DNA from: Paraburkholderia edwinii
GTDB lineage: Bacteria > Pseudomonadota > Gammaproteobacteria > Burkholderiales > Burkholderiaceae
Assembly (NCBI RefSeq): GCF_019428685.1
Contig: NZ_CP080095.1
Span: 3,472,001-3,536,000 of the forward strand
Length of the DNA stretch: 64,000 nt
Direction of reading: 5' to 3'
Positions 1,521 through 57,347 of this stretch are shown here, one piece after another (the stretch's first letter is position 1; each line of letters starts with the position of its first letter). The notes under the pieces were generated by a model. It was not told the DNA's origin. It ran no database searches and worked only from the letters and a program-made list of their open reading frames with translations. A program made the translations under genes and the position numbers.

Positions 1521-1604
1521 CTGAATGAGCGCCTGAACAAGCGCATGAGCAGGCGCCTGAACGGGCGTCCGACCGGAATCCCGACCCAACGCCAGATCAA
1601 CCGC
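1521..1604. repeat. 12-bp tandem array (7 units) before hisQ
   Basis: Seven consecutive 12-bp units related to CTGAACAAGCGC, increasingly diverged toward the 3' end. The array ends 15 bp before the start codon of the first permease gene, so it makes up most of that gene's leader. Confidence 0.8.
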
Positions 1605-1619
1605 CCTTAAGGACACACT

Positions 1620-2309
1620 ATGCTTCTGCAAGGTTACGGCCCGCTGATCCTCTCGGGCACGTTCCAGACCGTCAAGCTAGCCGTGCTGTCGCTCGTGCTG
1701 GCATTCGTGCTCGGGCTGCTCGGCGCGGCCGCGAAACTATCGAAAAACCGGCTTTCGCACGGCATCGGCACCGTCTACACGACGCTGATTCGCGGCGTGC
1801 CCGACCTCGTGCTGATGCTGCTGCTGTTCTACAGCATCCAGATCTGGCTCAACAACCTGACCGACGCGCTCGGCTGGGACCAGATCGACATCGATCCGTT
1901 CGTCGCCGGCGTCGCGGTGCTCGGCTTCATCTACGGCGCGTACTTCACCGAAACCTTCCGCGGCGCATTTCTGTCGGTGCCGCGCGGCCAGCTCGAAGCC
2001 GGCGCCGCGTACGGCATGACCGGCTGGCAGGTGTTCACGCGTGTGATGTTCCCGCAGATGATGCGCTTCGCATTGCCCGGCATCGGTAACAACTGGCAGG
2101 TCATGGTCAAGGCGACGGCGCTTGTCTCGATTATCGGCCTCGCGGACGTCGTGAAGGCCTCGCAGGACGCCGGCAAGGGCACGCTGCGGTTCTTCTTCTT
2201 CACGCTGCTGGCGGGCGCGATCTATCTGCTGATCACCACCGTCTCGAACTTCGTGCTGATCTACCTCGAAAAGCGCTACTCCACCGGCGTGCGAAAGGCG
2301 GAACTATGA
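1620..2309 (+). CDS. hisQ: Polar amino-acid ABC transporter permease (HisQ/ArtQ type)
   Basis: 229 aa inner-membrane subunit with an N-terminal TM segment followed by the amino-acid permease domain of the His/Glu/Gln/Arg/opine family. The EAA-loop that docks the ATPase is visible as GQLEAGAAYGMTGWQVFTRV near residues 121-140. It pairs with the next permease and the downstream ATPase to form a heterodimeric importer, most likely for basic amino acids (histidine, lysine, arginine). Its last 4 bp overlap the start of the next gene, indicating translational coupling. The substrate is inferred from family resemblance only; the usual binding-protein gene is absent here. Confidence 0.88.
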   Translation: MLLQGYGPLILSGTFQTVKLAVLSLVLAFVLGLLGAAAKLSKNRLSHGIGTVYTTLIRGVPDLVLMLLLFYSIQIWLNNLTDALGWDQIDIDPFVAGVAVLGFIYGAYFTETFRGAFLSVPRGQLEAGAAYGMTGWQVFTRVMFPQMMRFALPGIGNNWQVMVKATALVSIIGLADVVKASQDAGKGTLRFFFFTLLAGAIYLLITTVSNFVLIYLEKRYSTGVRKAEL

Positions 2310-3019
2310 TCGAGCTGATTCAGGAGTACTGGCGCAACTATCTGTACACCGACGGCTACCGTTTCACCGGTGTCGCGATCACGTTGTGGCTGCTCGTCGT
2401 GTCGATCGGCCTCGGCTTTTGCCTCTCGGTACCGCTCGCGGTGGCGCGCGTATCGAAGAAAAAGTGGCTCTCGAGCGCGGTGTGGCTCTATACGTATGTG
2501 TTTCGCGGCACGCCGTTGTACGTGCAACTGCTGCTCTGCTACACGGGCCTCTACAGCCTCGAAGTGATCCGCTCACATGAGCTGACCAACGCGTTCTTCC
2601 GCGACGGCATGCACTGCACGCTGCTCGCGTTCACGCTGAACACCTGCGCGTACACCACCGAAATTTTCGCCGGCGCGATCAAGGCGACGCCGTACGGCGA
2701 AATCGAAGCGGCGCGCGCCTACGGGATGTCGCAGTTCACGCTCTATCGCCGCGTGATCCTGCCGTCGGCCTTGCGCCGCGCGCTGCCGTACTACAGCAAC
2801 GAAGTGATCCTGATGCTGCACGCGACCACCGTTGCCTTCACCGCCACCGTGCCCGACATCCTGAAGATCGCACGCGACGTGAATTCGGCGACATACCGTT
2901 CGTTCGATGCGTTCGGTATCGCCGCCCTGCTCTATCTATGCATCTCGTTCGCGCTCGTGTGGATGTTCCGCCGCGCCGAGCGCCGCTGGCTCGCCTATCT
3001 GCGCCCGCAGGGCAAATAA
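2306..3019 (+). CDS. hisM: Polar amino-acid ABC transporter permease (HisM/ArtM type)
   Basis: 237 aa, second permease of the importer. The ATG overlaps the upstream stop (ATGA). Several hydrophobic TM segments and the EAA motif ([18 protein letters not shown], around residues 131-148) are present, as expected for the His/Arg family. Gene order permease-permease-ATPase is that of hisQMP/artQM clusters. About 50 bp separate it from the ATPase gene. Confidence 0.88.
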
Positions 3020-3068
3020 GGCAAAACAAAGGCAAAGCAAAGGCGTACAGCCGGCCCCAAGGATTCCA

Positions 3069-3848
3069 ATGAACACCCTGTCTCCCATGCTTTTCGTCGA
3101 CAACCTGCATAAGAAGTACGGCGATAACGAAGTGCTCAAGGGCGTGTCGCTGAAGGCGAAACGCGGCGACGTGATCAGCGTGATCGGCTCGTCCGGTTCG
3201 GGCAAGAGCACGATGCTCCGCTGCATCAACTTTCTCGAACAGCCGAACGCGGGCCGCATTTTCGTCGACGGCGAAGAGGTCCGCACCGCGAAGGATAAGG
3301 CGGGCGCACTGAAGGTCGCCGACCACAAGCAGTTGCAGCGCATGCGCACGCGCCTTTCCATGGTCTTCCAGCATTTCAATCTGTGGACCCATATGACGGT
3401 GCTCGAAAACATCATCGAAGCGCCGCTGCACGTGCTCGGCCTGTCGCGCAAGGAAGCCGAAGAGCGCGCGCGCACGTATCTCGAGAAAGTCGGCCTCGCG
3501 CCGCGCGTCGAGAAGCAATACCCGTCGCACCTGTCGGGCGGCCAGCAGCAGCGCGTCGCGATCGCCCGCGCGCTGACAATGCACCCGGACGTGATGCTGT
3601 TCGACGAACCGACTTCGGCGCTCGACCCTGAACTCGTCGGCGAAGTGTTGAAAGTCATGCAGACGCTTGCCGAGGAAGGCCGCACGATGATCGTCGTAAC
3701 GCATGAAATGGCCTTTGCACGCAATGTGTCGAATCACGTGATGTTCCTGCATCAAGGACGCGTCGAAGAAGAAGGCCACCCTTCCGAAGTATTTGGGAAT
3801 ACGAAGAGCGACCGTCTTAAACAGTTTCTCGCGGGAAGCCTCAAATAA
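3069..3848 (+). CDS. hisP: Polar amino-acid ABC transporter ATPase (HisP type)
   Basis: 259 aa ATPase. Walker A is GSSGSGKS at residues 40-47, the signature LSGGQQQR and Walker [10 protein letters not shown] follow, then the switch His in VVTHEMAFA. Length matches HisP (about 258 aa). The ATG at 3069 is chosen because homology-like sequence ([11 protein letters not shown]) begins directly after it; upstream in-frame sequence has no domain character. It would power import of basic amino acids together with the two upstream permeases. A terminator follows at 3893. Confidence 0.92.
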
Positions 3849-3892
3849 ATCCGAATTGCATGTAGTCGGGCATGTAGTCGATGTAGTATTAC

Positions 3893-5900: not shown

Positions 5901-6403
<503 letters not shown>

Positions 6404-6411
<8 letters not shown>

Positions 6412-8092
6412 GCGGCTCCGTATAGCGCGACGTGATCGGGTACCGCCAGTCGCGGCCGAACGCGCGATGCGTAACCCGAATGCCGATCGGCGCCTGGCGC
6501 CGCTTGTATTCGTTGATCTTGATCAAACGCGTGACGCGCTTTACGTCTTCCGCCGCAAAGCCCGCGGCGACGATTTCCGCGAGCGACCGGTCTTCTTCCA
6601 TGAACATGCGCATGATCGCATCGAGCGTGTCGTACGGCGGCAGGCTGTCCTGATCGGTCTGGTTATCGCGCAATTCGGCCGAAGGCGCGCGCGTCAGAAT
6701 GCGCTCGGGGATGATGTCCCGCTTTGGGTAGGCGGTTGCGGCGTTGCGGTAGTGGCACAGACGGTAGACCAGCGTTTTCGCGATGTCCTTGATCACCGCG
6801 AAGCCGCCCGCCATATCGCCGTACAGCGTGCAATAGCCCACCGCCATCTCGCTCTTGTTGCCAGTGGTCAGCACGAGCGAACCGAACTTGTTCGACAGCG
6901 CCATCAGCAGCGTGCCGCGAATGCGCGCCTGGATGTTCTCCTCGGTTGCATCTTCGGCGCGTCCCGCGAATTCGCCGGCCAGCGATGCGCGGAATGCCTC
7001 GAACATCGGCGCGATCGCGATTTCGTCGTAGCGCACGCCGACGCGCCGCGCCATATCGGCTGCGTCCGTGGTCGAAATATCGGCCGTGTAGCGCGACGGC
7101 ATCATCACCGCGCGCACGCGCTCGGGCCCCAGCGCATCGCATGCGACGGCCAGCACGAGCGCCGAATCCACGCCGCCCGACAGGCCGATGATCGCGCCCG
7201 GAAAGCCGTTCTTGTTGATGTAGTCGCGCACGCCGAGCACGAGCGCCGCATAGACCTGCGCCTCGATCGACGTCTCCGGCGCAATCGTGGCCGTGACAGG
7301 CTTGGCGCCGTCGAACTCGACGATCGCATGGCCTTCCGTGAACTGCGGCATCTTCGCGACGACCTCGCCGCGCGCATCGAGCACGAACGAGCCGCCGTCG
7401 AACACGAGTTCATCCTGCCCGCCGACCATATTCACGTAGACCATCGGCAGCCCGGTCTCGCGAATCCGCGCGCGCAGGATATCGATGCGCATCGCTTCCT
7501 TGTTCATGTGATACGGCGAGCCGTTCGGCACGAGCAGTACCTGCGCGCCGGCCGCCTTCGCAAGCTGCGCCGCCGACGCATGCCAGACGTCTTCGCAGAT
7601 CACGACACCGTACTTCACGCCGTCGAGCTCGAACACGAACGGCTGCGGATCGGACGCAAAATAGCGCTTCTCGTCGAACACTTCCGTGTTCGGCAGATCC
7701 TGCTTCAGGTAGGTGCCGACCACCGCGCCGTCGACGATCAACGATGCGGCGTTATACGTATCCACCGGTGGCAGCCCACGCTCGATCGGCGCGTTTGCAT
7801 TACCATGACCGTTTGCCACGTCGCGGTGCGGATGACCGACCACCACGTGAAGCCCGGCGAAAGGTTTGAGCGCAAGCGCAAGATCGGCGAGCGCCGCAGC
7901 GCTGGCCGCATAGAACGCGGGCCGCAGCAGCAGGTCTTCGGGCGGATAGCCGGACAACGCGAGTTCGGGCGCGATCAGCAGCTTCGCACCATCGCTGTGC
8001 GCGGCGCGGGCCGCGGCCACGATCTTCGCGACGTTGCCGGCGAAGTCGCCGACGGTGACATTGAGTTGGGCTAGAGCGATGCGAGTCGTCAT
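6404..8092 (-). CDS. nadE: Glutamine-dependent NAD+ synthetase
   Basis: 562 aa two-domain enzyme that amidates deamido-NAD with ammonia from glutamine. The N-terminal nitrilase-type glutaminase domain has the triad Glu43 (APELALSGYPPED), Lys130 (YLKQDLPN) and Cys166 (VICEDVW). The C-terminal synthetase domain has the P-loop SGGVDS at 305-310. The ATG at 8092 is chosen because MTTRIALAQLNVTVGD is the usual start; a further upstream ATG gives a non-homologous nonapeptide. Upstream of glnB, as in other Burkholderiaceae, and divergent from the FemAB-like gene. Confidence 0.95.
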
Positions 8093-8117
8093 TTGATAAA
8101 CACACGGCGCGCCGCGC

Positions 8118-9335
8118 ATGCGGCGAGTCAGATCGGATCGGGAACGGTCAGGCAGATTGAATCAGGAACGTTTTGATTATCTCACGGGCATTCTGGCGTC
8201 GCCGTCCGAAGTGGACGCCGCCGAATGGAATGCGCTGCTCGCGAGCCAGGCTCAGCCGACGCCGTTCTTGCGTCACGCGTTTCTGAGTGCGCTGCACGCC
8301 ACGCATTGCGCCGTGCCGGATACCGGCTGGGCGCCGCAATTCGTCACGCTGACCGACCCGCGCACGGGCCGGCTCGCCGCGGCAGCGCCGGTCTATATGA
8401 AGGGCCACTCGTACGGCGAGTACGTGTTCGACTGGGCATGGGCCGACGCCTACAAGCGCAACGGCCTCGCGTACTACCCCAAGCTGCTGTGCGCGGTACC
8501 GTTCACGCCGGTGCAGGGCACGCGCCTGATGGCCACCGATGCACGCGCGCTGCGGCACCTCGCGGCCACGCTCGTGGCGTTCGCCGAACAGGCCGATGTG
8601 TCGTCGCTGCACGTGCTGTTTCCAACCGATACCGAAGCACAGGCGCTGACCGACCTCGGCATGATGCAACGCGAAGGCGTGCAGTTTCACTGGCTCAACA
8701 ACGGCTATCGCGACTTCGACGAATTCCTCTCGACGCTCGAGCAGAAGAAACGCAAGAACATCCGAGCGGAGCGGCGCAAGGTGCGCGAAGCGGGCGTGAC
8801 GTTCCGGCGCCGCGTCGGCCGGGACATTTCGGACGCGGACTGGCGCTTCTTCAGCAAGTGCTATCGGCAGACGTACCGCGAACACTTTTCGAGCCCTTAT
8901 CTGAACCTCGACTTCTTCCGCATGATCGGCGAAACGATGCCGGAGAATCTGATGATGGTGATTGCCGAAGCGGACGGCAAGCCGATCGCGAGTTCGCTCG
9001 TCGTGTTCCAGCGCGACGATACGAAAGACGGCACGGGCGGCACGCTCTACGGCCGCTACTGGGGCGCGGTCGAACATGTGCCCTGCCTGCACTTCGAGAC
9101 CGCGTACTATCAGCCGCTCGAGTTCTGCATCGAGCAAAAATTCGCGGTATTCGAAGGCGGCGCGCAGGGCGAGCACAAGATGGCGCGCGGCTTTATGCCG
9201 ACTGTCACGCGCTCGACACATTGGCTCGCGCATCCCGCGTTTTCCGATGCGGTTGCGCAATTTCTCGATAACGAGACCAATCACATCCACGCGTATGTCG
9301 ACGAACTGCGCGAGCACAATCCCTTCAAAAGCTGA
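8118..9335 (+). CDS. FemAB/GNAT-fold protein of the COG3146 (DUF482) family
   Basis: 405 aa from the ATG; a TTG at 8157 gives LNQERFDYLTGILASPSEVD and may be the real start, since the first 13 residues look non-conserved and the ATG has no ribosome-binding site. Features of the COG3146 family are visible: KRKNIRAERRKV in the middle, FETAYYQPLEFCIEQ and FEGGAQGEHKMARGF near the C-terminus. Members are annotated as peptidogalycan-biosynthesis or GNAT-like acyltransferases, but no reaction is proven. Its promoter must lie in the very short divergent gap with nadE. Confidence 0.85.
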   Translation: MRRVRSDRERSGRLNQERFDYLTGILASPSEVDAAEWNALLASQAQPTPFLRHAFLSALHATHCAVPDTGWAPQFVTLTDPRTGRLAAAAPVYMKGHSYGEYVFDWAWADAYKRNGLAYYPKLLCAVPFTPVQGTRLMATDARALRHLAATLVAFAEQADVSSLHVLFPTDTEAQALTDLGMMQREGVQFHWLNNGYRDFDEFLSTLEQKKRKNIRAERRKVREAGVTFRRRVGRDISDADWRFFSKCYRQTYREHFSSPYLNLDFFRMIGETMPENLMMVIAEADGKPIASSLVVFQRDDTKDGTGGTLYGRYWGAVEHVPCLHFETAYYQPLEFCIEQKFAVFEGGAQGEHKMARGFMPTVTRSTHWLAHPAFSDAVAQFLDNETNHIHAYVDELREHNPFKS

Positions 9336-9698: not shown

Positions 9699-9731
9699 AA
9701 AAACCGCGCGGCCCGGTACAGGCACGCGCGG
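9697..9731 (-). terminator. Terminator of ppa
   Basis: Read on the minus strand, CCGCGCG/CGCGCGG forms a stem with a 21-nt loop followed by seven T. It is shared between convergent genes and could also slow transcription from the plus side. Confidence 0.75.
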
Positions 9732-9773
9732 CTTCTCGACCGGACCGGAAACGGTCAGGCAGACACTTTTACT

Positions 9774-10301: not shown

Positions 10302-10742
10302 GGCGCTCTCTGATGACGATGGAATGAGGAGATTGGCGGGACGCGTACGGCAATCACAACCAGCAACTACAAACAGCAACCACGCACAACGCCGGCGGCT
10401 GCCGGCCCGTATCGCCGCGGGAATGCGCCATTATAGCCAATCGGCCGGTGCCGCCCGCGCGCATTCGGCGCGATAATCGACGTATCGTCTGGCCGCGGCG
10501 CGGGCTTTTTGCGTGTTCGTGCGTTTGCAGCGCGTTTGCATCGTGTTTGTACTGCTATTGCGCTTGAACCGCACTTGTATCGCGCTTGTATCGCGCTTGT
10601 ATCGCATTCGTACGGCATTCACACCGCATTCGCCCCGCTCTGCGCATCCCGCACCGGCCAGTCGCTTCGAGCGCCCCGCACGGGACATGTTTTCAGGAAC
10701 GTCGCCGGGCCTCCAATCATCCCTTTCGAACAAGGAGCATGC
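10302..10742. other. Intergenic region between divergent ppa and ALDH genes
   Basis: 441 bp without a supported gene. Its main content is the 11-bp tandem array at 10511-10636. Open frames running through the array merely translate the repeat and are not credible proteins. Promoters for ppa (leftward) and the dehydrogenase cassette (rightward) must be here but are not obvious. Confidence 0.6.
10511..10636. repeat. 11-bp tandem array (about 11 units)
   Basis: Units related to GCGCTTGTATC follow one another with an 11-bp period. Two central copies are identical (10582-10592 and 10593-10603), neighbours carry 1-5 substitutions, and one copy is shortened to 8 bp and one to 10 bp. The array ends about 106 bp before the ALDH start codon. 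Confidence 0.85.
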
Positions 10743-12182
10743 ATGGAAGAAGCGAAACACTTCATCGGCAACGAATGGACCGCGGCGGCGGGCGGCGACT
10801 CGATCGCCGTGATCGACCCGTCCGACGGCCAGCCGTTTGCGCGTCTCGCGCGCGGCAACGCAGCCGATATCGACGTGGCTGTCACGGCCGCGCGGCGCGC
10901 CTTCGACGGCGCATGGGGCGCGCTGAGCGCCGCCGAGCGCGGGCGCCTGCTCTATCGGCTCGCGATGCTGGTCGGCACCTGCCACGAGGAGCTCGCGCAG
11001 CTCGAAGCGCGCGACACCGGCAAGCCGTTGCGCCAGGCGCGCGCGGACGCGGCGGCGCTCGCCCGCTACTTCGAGTTCTATGCGGGTGCCGCCGACAAGC
11101 TGCACGGCGAGACGCTGCCGTATCAGGCCGGCTACACGGTGTTCACGATCCGCGAGCCGCACGGCGTGACCGGCCATATCGTGCCGTGGAACTACCCGAT
11201 GCAGATCTTCGGCCGCAGCGCGGGCGCGGCGCTCGCCGCGGGCAACGCTTGCGTCGTGAAGCCCGCGGAAGACGCGTGCCTGTCGGTGCTGCGCGTCGCC
11301 GAACTCGCCGCCGAGGCGGGCCTGCCGGCCGGCGCGCTCAATATCGTGACCGGCTACGGCCATGAAGCGGGGGCGGCGCTCGCGAAACATCCGGGCGTCG
11401 ACCATATCTCGTTCACCGGGTCGCCGGAAACCGGCAAGCTCGTCACGCAGATGGCCGCCGAGAACCATGTGCCGGTCACGCTCGAGCTCGGCGGCAAATC
11501 GCCGCAAATCGTGTTCGCCGACGCGGACTTCGACGCCGCGCTGCCGGTGCTCGTGTCCGCGATCGTGCAGAACGCCGGGCAGACGTGCTCGGCGGGCAGC
11601 CGCGTGCTGATCGAGCGGTCAGCCTACGAGCCGTTGGTCGACCGGCTCGCGACTGCATTCAACGCGCTGCGCGTCGGGCCGTCGCATGCGGATCTCGACT
11701 GCGGGCCGTTGATCAGCGCGAAGCAGCAACAGCGCGTGTGGGACTTTCTGTCCGACGCGCAGCACGACAGCATTGCGATGGCCGCGCAAGGCCATGTGAT
11801 CGCCGAAGCGCCGGAAAGCGGCTTCTATCAGGCGCCGACGCTGTTGCGCGATGTGCCGCCGCAGCATCGGCTCGCGCGCGAGGAGGTGTTCGGTCCGGTG
11901 CTCGCGGCGCTGCCGTTCGCCGATGAAGACGAAGCGCTGGCGCTTGCGAACGGCACGCCGTACGGGCTCGTCGCCGGCATCTGGACGCGCGACGGCGCGC
12001 GGCAATTGCGCGTTGCGCGGCGCGTGCGCTCGGGGCAGGTGTTTATCAACAACTATGGCGCGGGCGGCGGCGTCGAGTTGCCGTTCGGCGGCGTCAAGCA
12101 TTCGGGGCATGGCCGGGAGAAAGGCTTCGAGGCGCTTTACGGATTCACGGTGCTGAAGACCGTGGCGATACGGCACGGCTGA
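10743..12182 (+). CDS. NAD(P)-dependent aldehyde dehydrogenase
   Basis: 479 aa. Start at 10743 follows AAGGAGCATGC; upstream in-frame sequence is translated repeat. Hallmarks: PWNYP (148-152), catalytic Glu248 in LELGGKSP and nucleophile Cys282 in NAGQTCSAGSR, then EEVFGPV. Overall it resembles betaine/gamma-aminobutyraldehyde-type ALDHs, oxidising an aldehyde to its acid. It is followed by an SDR and an ACS-family MFS transporter on the same strand, which suggests a small catabolic cassette (uptake, alcohol or keto-group oxidation, aldehyde oxidation). The substrate cannot be told from sequence. Confidence 0.92.
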   Translation: MEEAKHFIGNEWTAAAGGDSIAVIDPSDGQPFARLARGNAADIDVAVTAARRAFDGAWGALSAAERGRLLYRLAMLVGTCHEELAQLEARDTGKPLRQARADAAALARYFEFYAGAADKLHGETLPYQAGYTVFTIREPHGVTGHIVPWNYPMQIFGRSAGAALAAGNACVVKPAEDACLSVLRVAELAAEAGLPAGALNIVTGYGHEAGAALAKHPGVDHISFTGSPETGKLVTQMAAENHVPVTLELGGKSPQIVFADADFDAALPVLVSAIVQNAGQTCSAGSRVLIERSAYEPLVDRLATAFNALRVGPSHADLDCGPLISAKQQQRVWDFLSDAQHDSIAMAAQGHVIAEAPESGFYQAPTLLRDVPPQHRLAREEVFGPVLAALPFADEDEALALANGTPYGLVAGIWTRDGARQLRVARRVRSGQVFINNYGAGGGVELPFGGVKHSGHGREKGFEALYGFTVLKTVAIRHG

Positions 12183-12208
12183 GGTACGGCTGAGGTACGG
12201 CCGGGCAC
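12176..12208. repeat. 11-bp tandem array (3 units) over the ALDH stop codon
   Basis: Units CGGCTGAGGTA, CGGCTGAGGTA and a diverged third copy. The first unit includes the ALDH stop codon (TGA 12180-12182), so the repeat arose across the gene end. Confidence 0.7.
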
Positions 12209-12239
12209 GAGCAGCACAGTGCAGCGGGCGCGTGCGCCC

Positions 12240-12283
12240 GCGCGAAACACGCGCGAAACACGCGCGAAACACGCGCAAAACAC
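12240..12283. repeat. 11-bp tandem array (4 units)
   Basis: Three perfect copies of GCGCGAAACAC and a fourth with one substitution. It lies between the ALDH and SDR genes, 43 bp before the SDR start. Confidence 0.85.
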
Positions 12284-12326
12284 AAGCAGCACGCTGTGAA
12301 GCACAACCAACAACATTGGAGACATC

Positions 12327-18913: not shown

Positions 18914-19315
18914 TGCTGAGTCAAAAGTGAATAGCGGGATCGATAAAAAACAATGTTAGCACGCGCTTAAGCGCCGGCCCGCGGTTCTGCCGCGGTCTAT
19001 TGTCCGGCCGCACAGCCTTGCCCGACAACGCAGACAAGAAAGGAGACAGCGCGCCGCGCATCGCGCAAGGCACGCGTAGCGATCAGGATGAAACAATGGA
19101 ATCGAGCAATACACGTGCACGGTCGTTCGCGCGTCCCTACGCGGCCTGCGCGATGATGCAATGCGTTGCCGCCGCAGTGAGCGGATGTGGCAACGGATGT
19201 GGCAACATCAGGCAGAACCCCGGGCAGCCCCCCATGCAGTACCCGCAGTGGCAGTTCCTCTCTCTCTAGACCGTTATTTAGACCTTTAGACCCTGGCTTT
19301 CCGAGGAAACCCATC
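18914..19315. promoter_or_regulatory. Divergent hemC / ppc control region
   Basis: 402 bp between divergent start codons. A short frame beginning ATG at 19096 encodes a Cys/Met-rich 57-residue peptide, but nothing supports it as a gene beyond the open frame. No clear operator or riboswitch is seen. GAGGA just before the GTG at 19316 supports that start for ppc. Confidence 0.4.
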
Positions 19316-22627: not shown

Positions 22628-22655
22628 GCACGGTTTCTGCGGTTAGTCGTTGCAA

Positions 22656-22688
22656 GGGCACGCGGTGGCGTCGATGCACCGCGTGCCC
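22656..22688. terminator. Hairpin between convergent ppc and methyltransferase genes
   Basis: A perfect 12-bp stem GGGCACGCGGTG/CACCGCGTGCCC with a 9-nt loop. T-tracts are poor on both sides, so it may stabilise 3' ends rather than act as a classical terminator. Confidence 0.6.
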
Positions 22689-22695
22689 TACTTCG

Positions 22696-29939: not shown

Positions 29940-29970
29940 AAGGTGAACGCTGCTGACGTGACGGTGTTGA

Positions 29971-30075: not shown

Positions 30076-30196
30076 CGCGCCGTGCCGGTTCCGAACGCTC
30101 CGCGGGTGCCGGATACCGGATCGCACAAGCCAGGATCCGCGGCTACGGTCGGACGAAAGGCGCTTATTTTACGCGAAGGGAGCGTGGATGCCGCGC

Positions 30197-33071: not shown

Positions 33072-33095
33072 AAACCGGTTGAAAAACCGGTTGAA
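33072..33095. repeat. Perfect 12-bp tandem duplication
   Basis: AAACCGGTTGAA occurs twice in a row, 27 bp after the stop of the OmpA-like gene. Each unit contains the palindrome AACCGGTT. Confidence 0.8.
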
Positions 33096-33561
33096 GAAAT
33101 ACGGCTGCAAACCGACGCTTCCGAAACGTCGCGGAAACCTCGGCCGCAGCCGTTTTCCGCCGCCCGAAAAAAGCGGGACTGAAGGGTTCGTCTAAGGCGA
33201 ACGAAAATTTTTCGAACTCTTCGGCGCGCCCGCTGTCTTTATTAACGGTACGTGTGCGGTTTGTCCGCCGCGTCACCATTCTCCTCTTGTCGTTGTTGCT
33301 CCGGGGCCCATTAGCCCCGGTTTTTTTTGGTACGTACGGATCGCTGAAAGCCTTTGCCAGAGCCGCGCCGCGGCCTGTCCGAAGCGCCAAAGGCAGAACG
33401 CCTCCGACCGTTTTCACCCAACAACGACACCGCGTCAGCCACGCATCGCCAGCCCTCAGCCTCCGCCTCGCCTCCGTGTATCCGCCCAATTATCGGGACG
33501 GACGCACCACGAACACGTTCTGGAAAATGAAAGCCAGCTGTCGCGAAACTGCTTCGCGAAA
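33096..33561. other. Gene-free interval holding a strong orphan terminator
   Basis: The interval between the OmpA-like and PhyH-like genes has no credible ORF. An imperfect structure ACGGCTGC (33101-33108) / GCAGCCGT (33146-33153) ending in TTTT may terminate the OmpA-like mRNA. A much stronger terminator follows at 33301-33328, leaving about 150 nt that could be a small RNA or a 3' UTR. Confidence 0.45.
33301..33328 (+). terminator. Strong Rho-independent terminator without an adjacent ORF
   Basis: A perfect 7-bp stem CCGGGGC/GCCCCGG, a CCATTA loop and eight T. It lies 257 bp after the nearest upstream same-strand stop codon. Confidence 0.9.
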
Positions 33562-34338: not shown

Positions 34339-34769
34339 TCTTCACTCCTCCGTTCACGTCACGCGACGCTCCCGCTGCGCGCGTGACGCGGCGACCGTAT
34401 CAACGCATTGATGCCGGCTCGCTTATGGGTGACTTCGACTGACCGAATCTCATCGGAAGCGCGGATCGCATCGGAAACGCGAATCGCACTCAAAGCGCGA
34501 ATCGCATACGAAGCGGATTGCATACGAACAGTAAGATCGGGTAACGGGCCGCACTGTGCGCTCGCCAACGCAGCCGTGGGAACAAACCGTTGGCGCGCGG
34601 AATAACGAGGTCTTGCGCACGTTGTTGAGCAACCCTTTCCGACCGCAACACGCGGCGAGCCTGCGTTCAGGGACACGCTGGTAAAATCGGCCCAATCAAG
34701 CTGGTTCCGTCTCCCTTCGGCAGAACCCCACCTCCCCGCAGGCCAGAAAACTCCCGTATATCAGCCCGT
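34339..34769. other. Divergent spacer before metG with tandem repeats
   Basis: 431 bp without a supported gene. It contains the 18-bp array at 34451-34531 and TAAAAT at 34682-34687, a plausible -10 element about 85 bp before the metG ATG. Confidence 0.45.
34451..34531. repeat. 18-bp tandem array (about 4.5 units)
   Basis: Units related to CATCGGAAACGCGAATCG repeat with an 18-bp period; the fourth is shortened to 16 bp and a partial fifth follows. Confidence 0.8.
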
Positions 34770-41200: not shown

Positions 41201-43282
41201 CGGTTTAGCCGTCGGCTTCGGCGTCATGAGCGACGTCAGCGATAGCGGATCGAAGTCGGTCAGCGCCGCCTTCAGGTTGTAGGTCGAACTCGCGTCGTTC
41301 TTGATCGCGCCGGACAGGTCGATGCGCCCTTTGCCCGACGTCAGCCGCACGTCGTTGAAGCTCGTGCGCGCGGGGTCGAGCGTGACCTTGCCTTGCACGC
41401 GCAGCGCCGCCTGCGGATCGGCGAGATCGAGCTGGACCGTGCGGATATCGTCGTTCAGACGAATTGCGATCGGACCGGCGAACTGCGTCGGCCGCACGCT
41501 CGCGACGAGCGCGTTCAGATCGAGTTTCGCGACCTTCAGATCGAAACGGCCGCGCTTGCCGGCAAGCGAGCCGTCGCCAGTGACCGTCGCATTCTTCACG
41601 AGCCGCACGTTCAGGTTCGAGATGTGCTGCGCTTGCGCGTCGAGTCGCACATCGGCGCGCGCATCGATCAGCGGCAGCAGATGCGCGTCGATCGAACCGG
41701 GTTTTGCGTTGACGATCGACACCGAGCCGGTGACAGCGAAGCTGCGAGGGCGTGCCGCGGGGTTGGCGGGCGCGGGGGCGCTTGCTGCGTTCGCGGAGCT
41801 TGCTGTGTTCGCAGAACTCGCTGGCGTGATCGCGCCGCTCGCGGTTGATGCGCCTGCGGCAATCGCCGTTCCGCCCGCGCTCGCCGCGCGCTCGGACTGC
41901 ACGCCATCGCCGTTCGCCGCAGCACTGCTAGCCGCCCCACCATGCGCCTTCCGACGCGCGCCGCCGGCCCCGCTCGCCGACTTCGCCGGCTTCGCCGCAC
42001 TCGCGGCCCGCGCGCCGCTCGCCGTCTCCATGCCACCGACAGCCGCTCCACTCGCCGCCACCCCACTCGCCCCTTCCGCCGCATCCGGCGCCTTCTCCCC
42101 CGCCGGCCGCAAGTCCGCGCGCACCGCCAGATCCGCCGCCGGCGCACCCGGCGAGAACGCCTGCGGGTTCACGTGATCGAAGGTCAGCGTCGCGCGCTGC
42201 AGCGGCACGTCGGCGAACGGCGTCGCCTCGACGCGCGCATGACCGTCGAGCTTCATCCCGCTTGCATCGAGCTCGGCGACGAGCGTCTCGAGCGTGCCCG
42301 ACACATGCCCCTGCACCTGTACCGCTTCGTCGTTGACCTTGCCCGCATAGGTGGCCTCGCCGGTCAGCGGAAACGGCCGCACGCCATCGAGCTTCGCCCG
42401 CGCGGTGACCGCGCCGAACGGCGTATCGAGGCGCTCGACCGCCGCCTCGTGATGCCGCCCGTCGCTGCGGCCATGGAACAGCAGTCCCGAATATTCGCTC
42501 GTCGATGCGCCGTCGTGCAGCAGCAGCTTGTCGACGCTCAGGTCGCGCACTTCGAGCTGCATCGGCAGCTGCAGGTCTTCGGGCAAAGCGAGCGGCTGAG
42601 ACGGCTCGTTCGACGGCGCAATACGCGCGTCGATCGTGCCGACATGCAGATAGTCGACGGCAAACTTCCACGGCCGGTCCGACAGCGCCCACTTGCCCGA
42701 CGCATGGTCGACACGAATCTCGGTGCCGCTGCCGTCGAGGCTGCGCCATTGCACATGGGAGAGGCGTAAGCCAGTCGCCAGCGTGCCGCCCTCGAGCGTG
42801 CCCGCGAGCCGGCCGCCCAGCAGCTTCACCGCGGCCTGCCATGCGTAAGCCGTGCCGCGCTCCGTGACGACGACGCCGTACAGCGCGCCGGCCAGCAGCG
42901 CGATGATCAGCGCCGGGATGAGCGTCGCCCACAGGAGCGCGCGCCACAGCCGCCGGCGGCGCCTCGGCGGCGGTGGCGTATCCGCGCCGCCCGGCCCGTC
43001 GCCGGAGCCACCGGAGCCACCAGCACCACCGGACTCGCCGGCGCCGCCGTAACTGCCCGTCCCACCCGCAGAGGCGCCGTCGGAACCACCGGCCGAACCG
43101 TAACCGCCCGGCCCACCCGAGAGAACAGCACCGGAACCACCGGCCCCGCGGAAACCGCCGTACGCCTGCGCACCGCCGCCGCCCGCAGCACCCGCACCAC
43201 CCGCACCACCCGACCCGCCGCGCGACACATCGTCGCCCGGGCGATCCGATAGCAGGAGGTTAGCGATACGGTCCGTGGTCAT
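38264..43282 (-). CDS. tamB: Translocation and assembly module subunit TamB
   Basis: 1672 aa. A Gly/Ser-rich cytoplasmic N-terminus (about 1-105), one TM anchor (ALLWATLIPALIIALLAGAL, about 112-131), then a very long beta-rich periplasmic domain and the conserved TamB (DUF490) C-terminus ending in an amphipathic strand before WPWW. With TamA it forms a bridge for lipid transport or outer-membrane protein insertion. Odd features: large Ala/Pro/Ser/Thr-rich inserts at about residues 385-510 and 685-850, partly built of 9- and 12-bp DNA repeats. Downstream of tamA, 30 bp gap. Confidence 0.93.
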   Translation of the reverse strand: MTTDRIANLLLSDRPGDDVSRGGSGGAGGAGAAGGGGAQAYGGFRGAGGSGAVLSGGPGGYGSAGGSDGASAGGTGSYGGAGESGGAGGSGGSGDGPGGADTPPPPRRRRRLWRALLWATLIPALIIALLAGALYGVVVTERGTAYAWQAAVKLLGGRLAGTLEGGTLATGLRLSHVQWRSLDGSGTEIRVDHASGKWALSDRPWKFAVDYLHVGTIDARIAPSNEPSQPLALPEDLQLPMQLEVRDLSVDKLLLHDGASTSEYSGLLFHGRSDGRHHEAAVERLDTPFGAVTARAKLDGVRPFPLTGEATYAGKVNDEAVQVQGHVSGTLETLVAELDASGMKLDGHARVEATPFADVPLQRATLTFDHVNPQAFSPGAPAADLAVRADLRPAGEKAPDAAEGASGVAASGAAVGGMETASGARAASAAKPAKSASGAGGARRKAHGGAASSAAANGDGVQSERAASAGGTAIAAGASTASGAITPASSANTASSANAASAPAPANPAARPRSFAVTGSVSIVNAKPGSIDAHLLPLIDARADVRLDAQAQHISNLNVRLVKNATVTGDGSLAGKRGRFDLKVAKLDLNALVASVRPTQFAGPIAIRLNDDIRTVQLDLADPQAALRVQGKVTLDPARTSFNDVRLTSGKGRIDLSGAIKNDASSTYNLKAALTDFDPLSLTSLMTPKPTAKPAARTAAKAAAGTVARSAAAGAKRGAGDTSGRDPNSAATSTDAPTRDKDKGITAAQPGALASGVAAAPSAAPGSGATRAQSAQSAQATQAAKPAQATAPTSATRLAQAAQPASAAASVSPAGPVSAATPASAPATANAPAPTQPATPAKRPPGRKIEARINGTIIATGLLAPTFTTKAEFKLGDSMYDNLPMTGGGTIQLAGSRILPSHANLSVAGNQVDLQGSFGGRGDRLRFRVDAPELDRLGFGVAGLVDADGDVTGTFAHPNVTLNYKADSVVFGSNRLGHAEGHAELRDGANGAMVFTTDARNLSTAGIELKTLTARLNGTRANHTFEAAASGSLRDRPLDLTLAANGRLTDARDGTHWDGTVTRLQNRGTPALNMESPLTVSTGPQRLTLGATRITLEGAVLDLKSLAYDHGRVRSAGTLTGISVTRLQQLRQEFTGAAPLTKTDLVFDGDWDFALGDTSSGHIQLKRRSGDVTVEVGRGFASLGVTDISTRVDFAAGNRVNMTAHAQASRVGVIDAEAHTALAMRDGALTLDENAPLTGKIDANVPSLRTTGGLLGPSYLLDGHLALRLALGGTVAKPNLSGSLVGDGLSATAVDLGVQLKNGVVRIALSENLVDFQQVEFHGGDGTLRATGRVRLDNAEPDLTASIVADHLELFASPERQLVLSGSASVANAGQQGGLAINGKFNVEHALFDMPEQGAPSLGDDVVIVRPDGSVIGGKAPEVGNSNKPVGTFAPRANIDINLGNDFRFRGQGADVGLRGTITALSAPNMPLRAIGNVRVTEGSSYTAFGRKLAIENGFFTFNGPVANPGINILAMRRNQEVEAGVQVTGTIQSPVAKLVSEPNVPDNEKLSWLLFGHGTDQGNNLGQQSTMTTALALLGSASGKRIAQTFGLDEFSIGRSEVGLTDPQVVMVSKAINERLVIGYEQGLQSASNAIKATLNLTRYWSVAAYGGTFQGMDLLYTRRFDRWPWW
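41163..41222. repeat. 12-bp tandem array in the tamB low-complexity region
   Basis: Five 12-bp units related to GCCGCTTTAGCC, encoding Ala/Lys/Arg-rich 4-residue repeats (AKAA, ARTA) in TamB. Confidence 0.7.
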
Positions 43283-43312
43283 GCGTCGAATGCAGTCAGA
43301 TTCAAAGGTTGA

Positions 43313-45265
43313 TCAGAACGCAATGCCGAGCGTCAGATACGGACGCACGTCGTGATTGCGAATGCCATAAGCGAGGTCGACGTTCACCGGCCCGACAGGG
43401 CTGCGCCAGCGCGCGCCGAAGCCAACGCCGGGGAAGAACTCCTTCTCGTGCCAGTTATCGGTCGCGGTGCCGATGTCGAAGAACACGGCCGCGCCCCAAT
43501 CGTGGTTGAACCAGTGCTGATATTCGGAGCTGCCCGTCATCAGGTACTTGGTTGGCAGCACCGAGTCGCCGACGTTATTACCGATGCTCTGAAAGGCATA
43601 TCCGCGCACCGAGTTCGAGCCGCCCGCGCGGAACAGCAGCGAGGCCGGCACGCCGCTCGACGGCCCGCTGGTAAACACGCCGCCGACCTCCGCGCGAAAC
43701 AGCACGAGATCGCGCTGGCCGACCGGGATGTATTGCTGGCCGCGCGCATAGCCGCGGATAAACGTCTGATCGGCGAGCACGCCTTTCACCGCGAAGCCCG
43801 CCTCCGCGTGAATCAGGTTGCCCGAGCGCGGGAACAGCGGATCGTCGGTATTGCGGCGTGTCCACGACCATGCGGGCAGCAGCGCGCGCGCCGTGGTCGG
43901 CGGGGCCGCGTTCTGGTCCAGACGGTCCTGGTAGAACAGGAGCGAGTAGTTGTAGTCGATGTACTGCGACGTGCGCGCGCGCTGCACGCCTGCGCGCAGG
44001 CTGTAGATGCGCGTGTCGGACACGTCGGTCGTGGTGTACGACGCAAGCGCGCTGTTGGTCCAGCCGCGCTTGCCCGGCTGCATCGACAGCTGGACCTGCC
44101 CGTACTGCTGGATCTGGTCGAGCCGCCCCGACACCGTGAACGGCCACGCGGCGCCGAAGGTGTCGAGATACGTGTACGAACCCTGCACGTGTGCGCCCGT
44201 GTCGGTCGCATAGCCGACGCCGCCGCGCACGCTGTTGTACGGGTATTCGCTGACTTTTACGTGCATGGGGGTGTCGAGCGGCTTCGCCGGATCGTTATCG
44301 ACGTCGATCGCGACGCTCGCGTAGTACGGCGTGTTCTGCAGCTGGCGCTGCAGTTCGGTGACGCGCTGGACGTCGTAGATCTCGCCCGGCGAAATCGGAT
44401 TCACATTGTCGACGATGCTTTCCGGATAACGACGCGTACCCGATACGTCGAGCTTGCCGAGCGTGAAGGTCGGACCGCTGTCGAAAGTCACGGAGAGTTT
44501 CGCGTCATGTTTCTGCGGATCGATGCGCGCTTCCGATTGATAGATTTTCGCGCCCAGGTAGCGGCGCGCCTGCAGCGCCTTCAAGGCCGCGTTCTTCGCG
44601 CCGTCCCAGCCCGATTGCGTGAACGGGTCGCCGTCATGCAGCGTGAAGGCAAAGCGCGTTGCGTTTTCCTGCGCGGGATCCTCGGTTTCGACCGGACCGC
44701 GGAACGACAGCGTGATGGACGAGATTGTCGTGAGCGGGCCGGGGTCGACATGAACGACCACCGTGCGCCGGCCGTCGACTGTCCGCACGTCCGTGCGCAC
44801 GACCGGCGAGAAGTAGCCTTGCGTCGCGGCAAGGTCGCGCACCTGCTGCGGCGCGGCCGTGACGAGAAAATCGAACTGCTCGCTGCTGATGTCGTCGTGC
44901 TTCGCAAAGCGCGCCAGATCGAGGTGCTCTTCGAGCAGCTTGCGCAGCGAGCGCGGTGTGGCATCGACGTCGACGTCGTACGACGCGCGTTTTTTCGCCG
45001 CGTGCGCGGCGGGAGCGCCGGCCGCCGCCAGAAATAGCACGGCGGCGATCGCGAGAACGAGCCATGCGCGCGAAGGCCGCGCGGCGGGCCGCGGCCACGA
45101 GGCGCGGCGCCGCGTCAGACCGGCGGTGCGCTGCACAAGCCGCTGCACGAGCCGCTGACTGAGCCGCTGACTGAGCCGCGATTGCGACGGTTCGATTGAC
45201 CACCCCGCCAAACACGACCTCCGGCAATTGTTGATATCGACAGTTTCTGGCTTCGGCCAGTCCAC
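43313..45265 (-). CDS. tamA: Translocation and assembly module subunit TamA
   Basis: 650 aa from the first GTG. A signal peptide (SRAWLVLAIAAVLFLAAAGA, cleaved after AHA) begins only about 65 residues in, then POTRA domains (FTLGKLDVSGTRRYPE) and a 16-strand Omp85 barrel with the lid-lock motif FRAGGSNSVRGYAFQSIG and a terminal Phe (LTLGIAF). It works with TamB downstream. The true start is unclear: the stretch before the signal peptide is formed by four 12-bp repeats (LSQR/LVQR) and a later GTG or CTG inside it is possible. Confidence 0.92.
   Translation of the reverse strand: MDWPKPETVDINNCRRSCLAGWSIEPSQSRLSQRLSQRLVQRLVQRTAGLTRRRASWPRPAARPSRAWLVLAIAAVLFLAAAGAPAAHAAKKRASYDVDVDATPRSLRKLLEEHLDLARFAKHDDISSEQFDFLVTAAPQQVRDLAATQGYFSPVVRTDVRTVDGRRTVVVHVDPGPLTTISSITLSFRGPVETEDPAQENATRFAFTLHDGDPFTQSGWDGAKNAALKALQARRYLGAKIYQSEARIDPQKHDAKLSVTFDSGPTFTLGKLDVSGTRRYPESIVDNVNPISPGEIYDVQRVTELQRQLQNTPYYASVAIDVDNDPAKPLDTPMHVKVSEYPYNSVRGGVGYATDTGAHVQGSYTYLDTFGAAWPFTVSGRLDQIQQYGQVQLSMQPGKRGWTNSALASYTTTDVSDTRIYSLRAGVQRARTSQYIDYNYSLLFYQDRLDQNAAPPTTARALLPAWSWTRRNTDDPLFPRSGNLIHAEAGFAVKGVLADQTFIRGYARGQQYIPVGQRDLVLFRAEVGGVFTSGPSSGVPASLLFRAGGSNSVRGYAFQSIGNNVGDSVLPTKYLMTGSSEYQHWFNHDWGAAVFFDIGTATDNWHEKEFFPGVGFGARWRSPVGPVNVDLAYGIRNHDVRPYLTLGIAF
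45130..45177. repeat. 12-bp tandem array (4 units) at the tamA 5' end
   Basis: Two copies of GCTGACTGAGCC and two of the GCTGCACRAGCC type. If translated with the long start they give LSQR-LSQR-LVQR-LVQR ahead of the signal peptide. Confidence 0.85.
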
Positions 45266-45713
45266 GGGGGGACTGAAGCTTGGTATTTGACCACATCGGC
45301 GCGGCCGCGCATCCCGAATTCAGGGCGCGTGCGGCAAACGATCGATCGCGCGCGACGGTGTTTATGCGCCGCACGTTTTTGCGCCGATTTCTGCCGCCGT
45401 CTTCGCCCCTGACTGGCGCCGCTCTCGCGAGTTCGCCATCCGGCAACCGGCGCCCGCCTTGGACGGCTTCCGCCCGCCGATGTTCCGCAGCGGTTTCGTC
45501 AATGTTCCGCCGATGTGTCGTCGATCGTCCGTCGATGTTCCGTAAAATTCAGCGCCAGTATTTCCGCAGATGAGTCGCCGGCTGCGTACGCACCGAACCC
45601 TCGCGCACGTGTTTCTCGTCAGAATCGCTTACGGCCTGCGCGCTTGCGCTAAAATTACGTCCGACCCGAGCGGCCGCCCGCGCGGCGCCCTTTTCTTCAA
45701 TGGATTTCGAGCC
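45266..45713. other. Divergent spacer between tamA and the DUF3460 gene
   Basis: 448 bp with no supported gene. It contains the 11-bp array at 45476-45541. TAAAAT at 45650-45655, 59 bp before the next ATG, is a possible -10 element. Confidence 0.5.
45476..45541. repeat. 11-bp tandem array (6 units)
   Basis: Six exactly phased 11-bp units related to GTCGATGTTCC, followed by TAAAATTC. Confidence 0.8.
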
Positions 45714-46843: not shown

Positions 46844-47914
<1,071 letters not shown>

Positions 47915-53698: not shown

Positions 53699-53706
53699 CC
53701 GATTCC

Positions 53707-54744: not shown

Positions 54745-54748
54745 AGCC

Positions 54749-55726: not shown

Positions 55727-55826
55727 CAGCATCGATCAGTTCGCGGACAAGCGAGCACGCACGGCGACATGCGCGCCCTGTGTCGACTGACGCGACGCAG
55801 CGGCCGTCAATCACCGCCGGCGGCAC

Positions 55827-56417
55827 TCACGCATTCCAGCGCACGATCGCCCACTTCATCGTCGTGTCGTTACGCCTCAACCAGACGACCGCGCCCGCTT
55901 CGAGCGCCCATTGCAGACACACGTCGACCGTCAGCCCCAACGTCAGCGCCGCGATCACGCGCATCACGCCCGCATGCGTGACCACATAGGCGGGGCTCAG
56001 CTCGCGCGTCTGCTCGAACACGTCGAACCAGGTGCGCACACGCGCCACAAATTGCGCGACGCTCTCGCCGCCGTGCACACGCGCGCCTTCGAAATCGGCC
56101 GCCCATGCATCGATCAGCGCGCGATCGATATCGTCCCAGCGCTGCAATTCCCAGGTGCCGAAGTCCATTTCCTTCAGGCTGTCGTCGCTGCTCGCAGTAC
56201 AGCCGAAGTTGTTCGCGAGCGCGCCGGCAACGGTCGCGCAGCGCGTCAGCGGACTCGTCAGCACGACGCGCGGCGCAGGCACCTGCAAGGTCGCGAGGCG
56301 TACCGCGAGCGCTTCGGCCGATGTCTCGGGGCCAGCCGCAAGCGGCACGTCACTGTTGCCGTAACAGATACCCGCATCGACATTCACAGCCGGGTGACGA
56401 ATCAGGACCACATCCAT
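55827..56417 (-). CDS. Alpha-ribazole phosphatase (histidine phosphatase family)
   Basis: 196 aa. Phospho-acceptor His in VLIRHPAVNV (RHP variant, common in B12 loci), Arg/His residues in TSPLTRC and VTHAGVMRVI. Dephosphorylates alpha-ribazole-5'-phosphate or adenosylcobalamin-5'-phosphate. Start at 56417 overlaps the end of cobS by 16 bp, indicating coupling. The symbol cobC is also used for this enzyme in Salmonella nomenclature; left empty to avoid confusion. Confidence 0.88.
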   Translation of the reverse strand: MDVVLIRHPAVNVDAGICYGNSDVPLAAGPETSAEALAVRLATLQVPAPRVVLTSPLTRCATVAGALANNFGCTASSDDSLKEMDFGTWELQRWDDIDRALIDAWAADFEGARVHGGESVAQFVARVRTWFDVFEQTRELSPAYVVTHAGVMRVIAALTLGLTVDVCLQWALEAGAVVWLRRNDTTMKWAIVRWNA

Positions 56418-57160
56418 GCGACCCCCGTCAGATAAATAGCCAGTTCGAAGACCTGCTGCGCGAATCCGAGGCAATCGCCGGTATAGCCGCCGATGCGCCG
56501 CACGAAATAGCGGCCGAGCCCGATACGCAGAATCAACAGCACCGCTGCGATCAAGCAACCTCCACGCCAGTCGGGCCAGAAAAGCCATGGCACGCCCAAT
56601 ATCAGTGCGCACGCGAACGCGCCGTGCGTCATCCGCTGCGCGACCGGCCTTGCCTTACCTTCAGCGCGCACGTAGTCGAGCGTGACGAGATAGCTGATCG
56701 CGCACGCACGGCTTGCCGCATGGGCGGCGACCATCAGCCACGCCGCGCGCAATGGCGGCAATACCGCAAGCGTCTGCCATTTGAGCGCGAGTGAAATCAC
56801 CAGTGCGATCGCGCCGAAAGCGCCGATCCGCGAGTCTTGCATGATGCGTAATACATCTTCGCGCGAATAGGCACCACCGAACGCATCGATGCAATCCGCA
56901 AGACCGTCCTCGTGAAACGCACCGGTAACGAAAAGCGTCGCGGCCATCGACAGCAAAACTGCAATGCCGGGCGGAAAAAAACGCAACGCCGCGAGATAAA
57001 CGAGCGCGCCAATCGCACCGACGATCACGCCGACGAGCGGAAAGTAGCGCGCCGCGCCATTCAGATAGTGGGGCTCGTAGCCGACCCAGCGCGGCACGGG
57101 CACGCGCGTGAAGTAACCGAGCGCGGTGAAGAAATAGCGTAGTTCAGCGAGCGGATTCAT
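56402..57160 (-). CDS. cobS: Cobalamin synthase (adenosylcobinamide-GDP ribazoletransferase)
   Basis: 252 aa multi-pass membrane protein. LGYFTRVPVPRWVGY start, GAFHEDGLADCIDAFGG with the metal-binding acidic residues, and RIGGYTGDCLGFAQQ. Joins adenosylcobinamide-GDP with alpha-ribazole(-phosphate). Middle gene of the leftward btuC-btuD-cobT-cobS-phosphatase operon, separated from cobT by a repeat-filled 204-bp spacer. Confidence 0.95.
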   Translation of the reverse strand: MNPLAELRYFFTALGYFTRVPVPRWVGYEPHYLNGAARYFPLVGVIVGAIGALVYLAALRFFPPGIAVLLSMAATLFVTGAFHEDGLADCIDAFGGAYSREDVLRIMQDSRIGAFGAIALVISLALKWQTLAVLPPLRAAWLMVAAHAASRACAISYLVTLDYVRAEGKARPVAQRMTHGAFACALILGVPWLFWPDWRGGCLIAAVLLILRIGLGRYFVRRIGGYTGDCLGFAQQVFELAIYLTGVAWMWS

Positions 57161-57215
57161 CGTCGCGCACCTTCGTACAATTCGGCACGCGTGCGCGTGT
57201 GCACGCTGCGCGAGC

Positions 57216-57347
57216 GCTTATACGTACATTCATGCGTCCCGTTGTGCGTACGTTCATGCATACATTTATGCGTACGTTCGTGCGTCCACTCGGGCGCGCG
57301 CTCATGCAACCGCTCACGCGACCGTTCGTGCAATCGTCTCCGCAAGC
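57216..57347. repeat. 12-bp tandem array (11 units) between cobT and cobS
   Basis: Eleven exactly phased 12-bp units of the form GTTCATGCGTAC with changes at most positions except a core TGCG/TGCA. It fills about two thirds of the cobT-cobS spacer, within an operon. The frame through it only yields NVR/NVC four-residue repeats. Confidence 0.88.

Follow-up and report, generated by a model that had tools for sequence, protein, structure and literature searches.

Why should the spacers of a bacterial genome carry many short head-to-tail repeats that resemble one another in unit length and not in sequence? We address this question for a 64,000-nucleotide stretch (C1:3472001-3536000, hereafter the window) of an 8.30-Mb genome on two contigs, C1 and C2, which is coded G000 in the comparisons below and is placed in Paraburkholderia by its closest relatives; by nadE protein identity the nearest named species are P. 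solisilvae (94%), P. rhizosphaerae (93%) and P. humisilvae (93%). The arrays are probably what an ongoing mutational process leaves behind, namely tandem duplication at a local scale in steps of approximately 8-15 nt, most often near 12. They look like marks of that process and not like a functional element.

Abundance and Unit Length

Arrays were detected with Tandem Repeats Finder (TRF, score of at least 36), and dinucleotide shuffles of the spacers served as controls; the spacers are those left by a codon-usage gene caller, and some of them may be coding and vice versa. The 41 window spacers of at least 40 bp (9,263 bp in total) contain 25 arrays, as compared with a mean of 1.03 and a maximum of 4 in 100 shuffles, and 19 arrays with periods of 9-15 as compared with 0.84. 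A genome sample drawn from both replicons (the window and 20 stretches of 20 kb, 464 kb with 77.8 kb of spacer) contains 128 arrays versus 9.6 in 10 shuffles. The arrays are therefore far above chance, and a sequence-only reading of the window, which had named a shuffled-sequence control as what could refute it, survives that control. All 14 of the coordinates that it gave for arrays coincide with a TRF array and are visible in the sequence; it described them all as intergenic, but the array at 12175-12201 overlaps the 3' end of an aldehyde dehydrogenase gene and is not purely so. The window lies on the dense side of the genome sample (chi-square 34.5, 20 degrees of freedom), and C1 has a higher density than C2 (72 arrays in 45.6 kb versus 29 in 29.8 kb, P 0.03).

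The period histogram of the genome sample is a single hump, with 3 arrays of period 8, 14 of 9, 10 of 10, 22 of 11, 32 of 12, 17 of 13, 6 of 14, 4 of 15 and few longer (mean 12.0, standard deviation 2.1, over 90 arrays of period 8-18). In a lag test that is independent of TRF, the spacers have 37 runs of at least 8 identical bases at lag 12, versus 1.9 in the control, with smaller excesses at lags 9-11, 13-16, 18, 22, 24 and 36; in coding DNA the excess is chiefly at multiples of 3. Complete exact duplications in the spacers number 10 at period 9, 4 at 10, 5 at 11, 12 at 12 and 5 at 13, with at most 0.6 for each in shuffles (none at lag 12); three lie above lag 15 and 2 above period 16. Among arrays of at least 2.8 copies, units of 3-7 bp are close to chance (16 versus 9.6), while units of 8, 9, 10, 11, 12 and 13 bp number 6, 13, 4, 10, 12 and 8, respectively (at most 0.8 each in shuffles), the 9-bp unit being as frequent as the 12-bp unit. 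Because multi-copy arrays are in excess only from unit 8, it is growth, more than birth, that marks the 8-13 range.

Helical Phase

The sequence-only reading had taken the period to be close to one helical turn and had offered selection for helically phased or bent DNA as one of two explanations, in which copies spaced by one turn would align bends or protein faces along the same side of the helix. Periods of 9-12 do lie near 10.5, and coherence at the first step is 0.64 at 10.5 bp per turn; such coherence is, however, expected from any narrow period range. With a mean period of 12.0 each copy is rotated by approximately 44 degrees relative to the one before, and coherence falls to 0.18 at two steps, so helical phasing is not maintained. 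Moreover, the lag harmonics are at 22-24 and 36 instead of 21 and 31, the units are not enriched in A-tracts (8 of the 83 arrays whose units were compared in the 464-kb sample, versus 7.8 at random), and most arrays are not common to the close relative G191 (introduced below). Neither a period near 10.5 nor copies in phase, as in curved DNA, is thus found, and we consider this kind of selection highly improbable. Helically phased A-tracts, as presented in the accessible part of their description (PMC3940949), are likewise short-period; the arrays differ from them in their period of 12, in their A-tract content and in their loss of phase.

Position and Unit Sequence

Most arrays had also been thought to lie shortly upstream of start codons. 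Within 40 bp upstream of starts, coverage is in fact at its minimum (1-2.4%); the maximum (10%) falls 20-40 bp past gene ends, and density is equal by spacer type (108, 113 and 114 per 100 kb for co-directional, convergent and divergent spacers of the genome sample). These findings fit tolerance and not a promoter role. No transcription-strand bias was observed across the 42 arrays of co-directional spacers. In GC content and CpG the arrays resemble the remaining spacer DNA.

Units differ between sites, as was originally noticed: a common 10-mer is found in 4 of 3403 unit pairs (random mean 2.3, random maximum 8), a common 9-mer in 12 (6.4, maximum 15) and a common 8-mer in 48 (21.6, an approximately twofold excess, with a maximum of 51 in 50 random sets). 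An origin in a dispersed or mobile family of repeats that bring tandem units with them is accordingly scarcely credible. There is a precedent in part of the repeats of B. pseudomallei, in which 36.3% of all arrays are duplicated elsewhere in the genome according to the accessible text of that study (PMC1853098). The Paraburkholderia units are site-specific, and those gained in the window at 1413 and 46844 (see below) are a continuation of the local sequence.

The arrays could also be iteron-like or regulatory, offering binding sites to one or a few DNA-binding proteins. This would find a basis in the 8-mer sharing and in a word bias of the units: GCAA is present in 26 of the 83 G000 units (expected 11.5) and in 7 of the 12 units of the congener G011 (expected 1.7), in which GCAA/CAAA are enriched, and AAAC is present in 18 of the 83 G000 units and in 29 of 119 units (expected 11.6) from other Paraburkholderia, a pool made up mostly of orthologous, non-independent copies of one region. 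Sharing at 9-10 bases, however, is within chance, and the GCAA/CAAA/AAAC bias is not seen in the units of G191 and of another congener, G014, each represented in this comparison by few arrays. Most arrays are missing from G191, and convergent spacers are as dense as the others. Apart from the mild word bias, no unit conserved across copies, sites or species was found, and binding arrays are in our view very unlikely.

Two candidate sources of the units were rejected. A common motif would have to be sought in a 2-4-fold word bias, as no long word is shared. For hairpin-stabilised loops, the mean best folding free energy of the units is -1.30 versus -1.34 for random spacer segments (P 0.38); the units are more foldable than letter-shuffled units (-1.30 versus -1.08, P 0.03).

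Turnover between Species

G191 was used as a close relative on the basis of sequence similarity, without a tree: in a search of 144 congeneric genomes it is the top-scoring of those given by code (87% over 1979 of 2131 query bases, spacer included), and three further genomes reached 88-89% identity over approximately 1,500 bases. Since the genome collections hold one genome per species, all copy-number comparisons are between species; spacers of the other relatives were taken from loci L032-L111. Synteny with G191 extends to 34 of the 37 window spacers of at least 60 bp, with a spacer identity of 0.885. In the spacers common to both, 17 of 24 window arrays overlap no G191 array and 7 do, and 8 of 15 G191 arrays overlap no window array and 7 do; some of these overlaps involve unlike units. 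Array bases align at a fraction of 0.57 in the window and 0.86 in G191, as compared with 0.88 and 0.94, respectively, for the remaining spacer bases. Indel events of at least 5 bp number 72, in both directions.

Several length differences are informative, although the alignment of the repeats is ambiguous and gap lengths elsewhere are not always unit multiples. In spacer 1413-1619, G191 has a single TGAGCG-containing unit and the window has 48 additional bp (4x12); in spacer 46844-47080 the window is longer by 34 bp (2x17); in spacer 29940-30196 it is longer by 40 and 48 bp over a short G191 remnant; and in spacer 34339-34769, with an 18-bp unit, by 47 and 6 bp. At several sites of multi-copy arrays in the window, G191 thus appears to retain short pre-array states. 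The individual arrays, all called by TRF, compare as follows.

613-645: unit of 9 bp (TTAAAAGCC), 3.7 copies, TRF score 59, directly 3' of a stop codon; zero bases alignable in G191
1126-1157: unit of 10 bp (CAAGCACGAA), 3.2 copies, TRF score 50; 13 bp more in the window than in G191
1520-1562: unit of 12 bp (CCTGAACAAGCG), 3.6 copies, at the 48-bp gain; none of the 3 named relatives having the spacer carries an array
3858-3880: exact 12-bp duplication, two copies, directly 3' of a stop codon; the G191 counterpart is equal in length (no gain at the site), diverged and without an array call
6348-6413: unit of 10 bp (called at 6348-6394) with a 30-bp higher-order period, the final 10 bp inside the NAD synthase gene (6404-8119, minus strand) at its 3' end; 26 bp more than in G191, where a short 10-bp array overlaps
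10521-10638: three adjoining arrays of 11-bp units (GCGTTTGCAGC, TATCGCGCTTG, CGCATTCGCAC)
12175-12201: unit of 11 bp (ACGGCTGAGGT), across the aldehyde dehydrogenase stop codon (stop at 12182)
12239-12283: unit of 11 bp (CGCGCGAAACA), 4.1 copies, 97% matches; a different overlapping array in G191
19182-19206: exact 12-bp duplication (CGGATGTGGCAA); an adjoining gap of 11-14 bp in G191
29972-30072: unit of 12 bp in 8.6 copies, with higher-order periods of 24 and 36 bp; all 3 other relatives lack an array
33072-33095: exact 12-bp duplication, two copies (AAACCGGTTGAA); no array at the G191 counterpart
34444-34515: unit of 18 bp, 4 copies; the G191 gaps of 47 and 6 bp sum to 53, near 3x18
45129-45179: unit of 12 bp (AGCCGCTGACTG), at the 5' end of tamA; falls within a 66-bp gap of G191
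45480-45538: unit of 22/11 bp (22 = 2x11; ATGTTCCGCCGATGTGTCGTCA); overlapped by a similar array of 12-bp units in G191
46857-46898: unit of 17 bp (CCGCGCCTTATCTTTCA), 2.5 copies; the 34-bp gap leaves approximately one unit in G191
57218-57333: unit of 12/24 bp (57218-57288), then 12 bp (57299-57333), the same period continued; overlapping 12-bp arrays in G191, over which the window gains 6, 12, 25 and 11 bp

Across a wider set of relatives, several spacers hold different arrays in different species. Spacer 10302-10742 has an array (score of at least 36) in 29 of 73 relatives, many with units of 10-13 bp that by eye are unlike those of the window; one 13-bp unit is common by descent to 8 of the 29 and some others are pairwise alike, and these counts are therefore not independent events. 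Arrays with other units are found in spacer 12183-12326 of 11 of 72 relatives, and arrays occur in spacer 6240-6403 of 4 of 81 and in spacer 1413-1619 of 0 of 3. Judged from the comparison with G191, array turnover is fast.

Density across Genomes

Density was measured as excess arrays of period 9-15 per 100 kb of spacer, for each comparison genome from 80-100 kb (for G001, G011, G020 and G022 a contiguous region around the window orthologue, for several others one or two contigs). It is a lineage property, high in G000 (147 on C1, 88 on C2), G191 (150), G011 (133), P. kururiensis (124) and G014 (84). Next are G086 (59), P. solisilvae (58), G020 (53), G001 (49), G022 (48) and P. rhizosphaerae (45), followed by G030 (31), G103 (29), G084 (27), P. 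xenovorans (26), S. meliloti pSymB (25), P. saeva (21), Caballeronia telluris (19), P. humisilvae (13), P. phenazinium (13), B. anthina (11), G027 (6), Trinickia fusca (5), G038 (4) and E. coli (3). Several other Paraburkholderia and B. anthina thus have a density that is lower by a factor of approximately 5-10, and in E. coli it is near zero; G000 has 101 arrays in 75.4 kb versus 20 in 79.9 kb for the four lowest named Paraburkholderia, which were picked post hoc (P 3e-15). High GC alone does not explain the difference, because B. anthina has a GC content of 0.674 and yet a low density. Weak arrays with units of 9-13 bp are also present in other Burkholderiales and S. meliloti pSymB; given these similar unit lengths in other genera, the period is only in part the signature of this genome that it had seemed, and it is the density that is unusual and distinctive.

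The first duplicate could arise by staggered-break fill-in and joining (Ku/LigD end joining), with slippage expanding it afterwards. Ku matches are indeed present in 19 of 22 genomes (21 relatives reached by way of named loci, and G000, which has two), but their number does not track density: low-density P. humisilvae has 3, high-density P. kururiensis 1, and low-density P. xenovorans and P. saeva 1 each. On this search, which covered Ku, we regard this route as unlikely. As causes of the density, three further families were rejected: Y-family/IMS polymerases are present in 14 of 14 genomes, a 5'-3' nuclease domain in one copy in 14 of 14 (scored as domain presence, not residues), and a family-B polymerase in 12 of 14, being missing from one high- and one low-density genome.

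Coding DNA

In coding DNA two tests were applied, a TRF test with codon-shuffled controls, which tolerates degenerate copies and whose counts include protein repeats unrelated to duplication, and a test for exact runs of at least 10 bases. By TRF, the excess of arrays of period 9-15 per 100 kb is 21.4 in G000, 24.0 in G191 and 23.4 in P. kururiensis, G011 and G014 together, as compared with 11.7 and 14.3 in two low-density sets and -0.8 in E. coli. High-density genomes have 255 arrays in 661 kb versus 140 in 525 kb for the low-density genomes (P 4e-4; G000 alone, P 0.02), the two groups having been defined after the density table was seen. Out-of-frame arrays are approximately as expected in G000 (20 versus 14.0) and G191 (3 versus 4.0). 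The suggestion that the 12-bp style recurs in coding regions is borne out in part, by TRF, with an excess about twice as large in dense genomes, and not by exact matching, in which the genomes do not differ. We take the TRF result as moderate backing for one genome-wide process on which selection acts as a filter; the exact-run result continues to speak against it.

Local Tandem Duplication as the Probable Source

The other explanation of the sequence-only reading, genome-wide local tandem duplication followed by decay, is supported by the presence of arrays on both replicons, the site-specific units and the pre-array states of G191. We observe an excess over chance, a unimodal unit length, no common long unit, gains over short states and differences among lineages; the triggering event would probably be slippage or flap mis-processing at replication. 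A stretch of approximately 12 nt would be duplicated in tandem during DNA synthesis, the two-copy state would be enlarged by further slippage, often of several units together, which would give the higher-order periods of 24 and 36 bp, and point mutation would later erode the copies. Coding regions would retain mainly in-frame events, the rate would be set by lineage, and the process would be visible in spacers because these tolerate any length.

More speculatively, the step could be set by the replication machinery, through the extent of duplex that the polymerase binds or through a displaced flap as long as a primer; the primers made by primase are approximately 11 nt long, and flap-nuclease mutants show duplication phenotypes. 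Mismatch repair, as described in the available part of one study, is efficient for 1-3 bp and weaker with longer loops (PMC4060949). Loops of approximately 12 nt would consequently escape repair, which explains their tolerance and not the scarcity of multi-copy 4-7-bp units. We tentatively entertain a stronger version, which may well prove wrong, in which some Paraburkholderia lineages have a heightened general duplication, with a step of approximately 12 nt (limit near 16) fixed by a length of the replication or repair machinery, that continually writes about one array per kb of spacer into promoters and leaders. The weaker arrays of similar unit in other Burkholderiales and S. meliloti would be a low-rate form of the same process.

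Several results weigh against this explanation. Exact two-copy duplications of 5 bp number 120 versus 93.3 in shuffles (standard deviation 8.9), and births may not be limited to 9-15 nt. The 2-4-fold bias toward GCAA, CAAA and AAAC, recurring in G000, G011 and the pooled other Paraburkholderia, is not predicted by neutral slippage. In the exact-run test of coding DNA, period 12 yields 6 runs versus 3.6 in G000, as compared with 10 versus 2.0 and 12 versus 2.4 in the low-density sets, although uniform mutation should raise coding duplications unless selection removes them. Out-of-frame coding arrays in P. kururiensis, G011 and G014 (L144-L151, L184-L188) number 33 versus 12.3 expected, a surplus that could be gene-calling error or real. 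Whether a difference is a gain in the window or a loss in G191 is decided by further relatives at some sites only. Among 21 close pairs at the nadE locus, which were not selected for density, the 386 spacer indels include few of 8-16 bp, and tandem indels show no clear peak near 12. Finally, none of the four gene families tested tracks density.

Relation to Known Repeats

Like minisatellites or variable number tandem repeats, the arrays have head-to-tail copies above chance (25 versus 1.0 in the window spacers) and a copy number that varies among related genomes, here between species, at three sites relative to G191. Their units are contiguous and mostly 9-18 bp, unlike clustered regularly interspaced short palindromic repeats (CRISPR) or other spaced direct repeats.

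It had been thought that no described element fits. A class of intergenic short-unit repeats has, however, already been described in Burkholderia; its units are smaller. According to the accessible text on B. pseudomallei, its tandem repeats are of high density, 74.7% and 68.2% of them being intergenic on the two chromosomes, with units mainly of 6-9 bp in 4-10 copies (PMC1853098). As far as that text goes, the Paraburkholderia arrays are similar in that they occur in Burkholderiaceae, are mostly intergenic, dense and variable in copy number, and in coding DNA are mostly multiples of three; they differ in having a mode of 12 bp, mostly 2-5 copies, frequent degeneracy and site-specific units. 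Unit length peaks at 12, with 6-7 bp near chance and 8-9 bp in excess (arrays of at least 2.8 copies), and the motifs of the 83 arrays are not duplicated elsewhere in the 464-kb sample.

Tandem repeats of 6-11-bp oligomers are over-represented in intergenic regions of some prokaryotes, as reported in the part of the study available (PMC4060949). Judged from that part, these repeats share with ours a lineage-specific excess of medium-length units in spacers and not in genes; they stop at 11-bp units, whereas here there is a peak at 12, with decayed copies and pre-array states in a relative. In PNAS in 2007, Mrazek and co-workers reportedly interpreted their LSSR5-11 class as a tendency to expand. 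Prokaryotic satellites include short-repeat kinds that are abundant in particular Burkholderia and that, in the accessible portion of their description, arise from CG-rich 6-8-nt microsatellites and fall into families (PMC6749651); no common family is found among the Paraburkholderia arrays. The arrays are thus the same kind as the known Burkholderia and prokaryote repeats, from which they differ in that their modal unit is longer and their units are specific to each site. A literature search, with incomplete journal coverage, returned no title or abstract describing such arrays in Paraburkholderia.

If the step length is real and set by a machine, a simple sequence statistic would read out a mutational mechanism, and the 5-10-fold variation among congeners opens its cause to genetic comparison. 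A good part of the spacer-length divergence among these species would come from tandem duplication, with consequences for promoter comparison and for motif calling from repeated words; caution is due before periodic intergenic repeats are read as binding arrays.

Other Features of the Window

Two structured RNAs are predicted in the window by Rfam matches: ncS16 (Burkholderia sRNA 16) at 33248-33329 on the plus strand (95 bits), in a spacer that also contains two arrays, and 6S RNA (RF00013) at 61814-61995 on the plus strand (55.6 bits), in a spacer with a 14-bp-unit array in G191 and none at threshold in the window. Terminator-like palindromes on CCACGGCA...TGCCGTGG are alike in spacers 609-1190 and 63450-63640 and are present in relatives too. 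G191 is longer by approximately 1.1-1.3 kb at spacers 9699-9773 (1204 versus 75 bp) and 22628-22695 (1371 versus 68 bp). A putative tamB-tamA pair occupies 38264-45136 on the minus strand, with NCBIfam TamB and TamA matches below the curated cut-offs, and the tamB frame contains several internal arrays of 9, 18, 27 and 51 bp.

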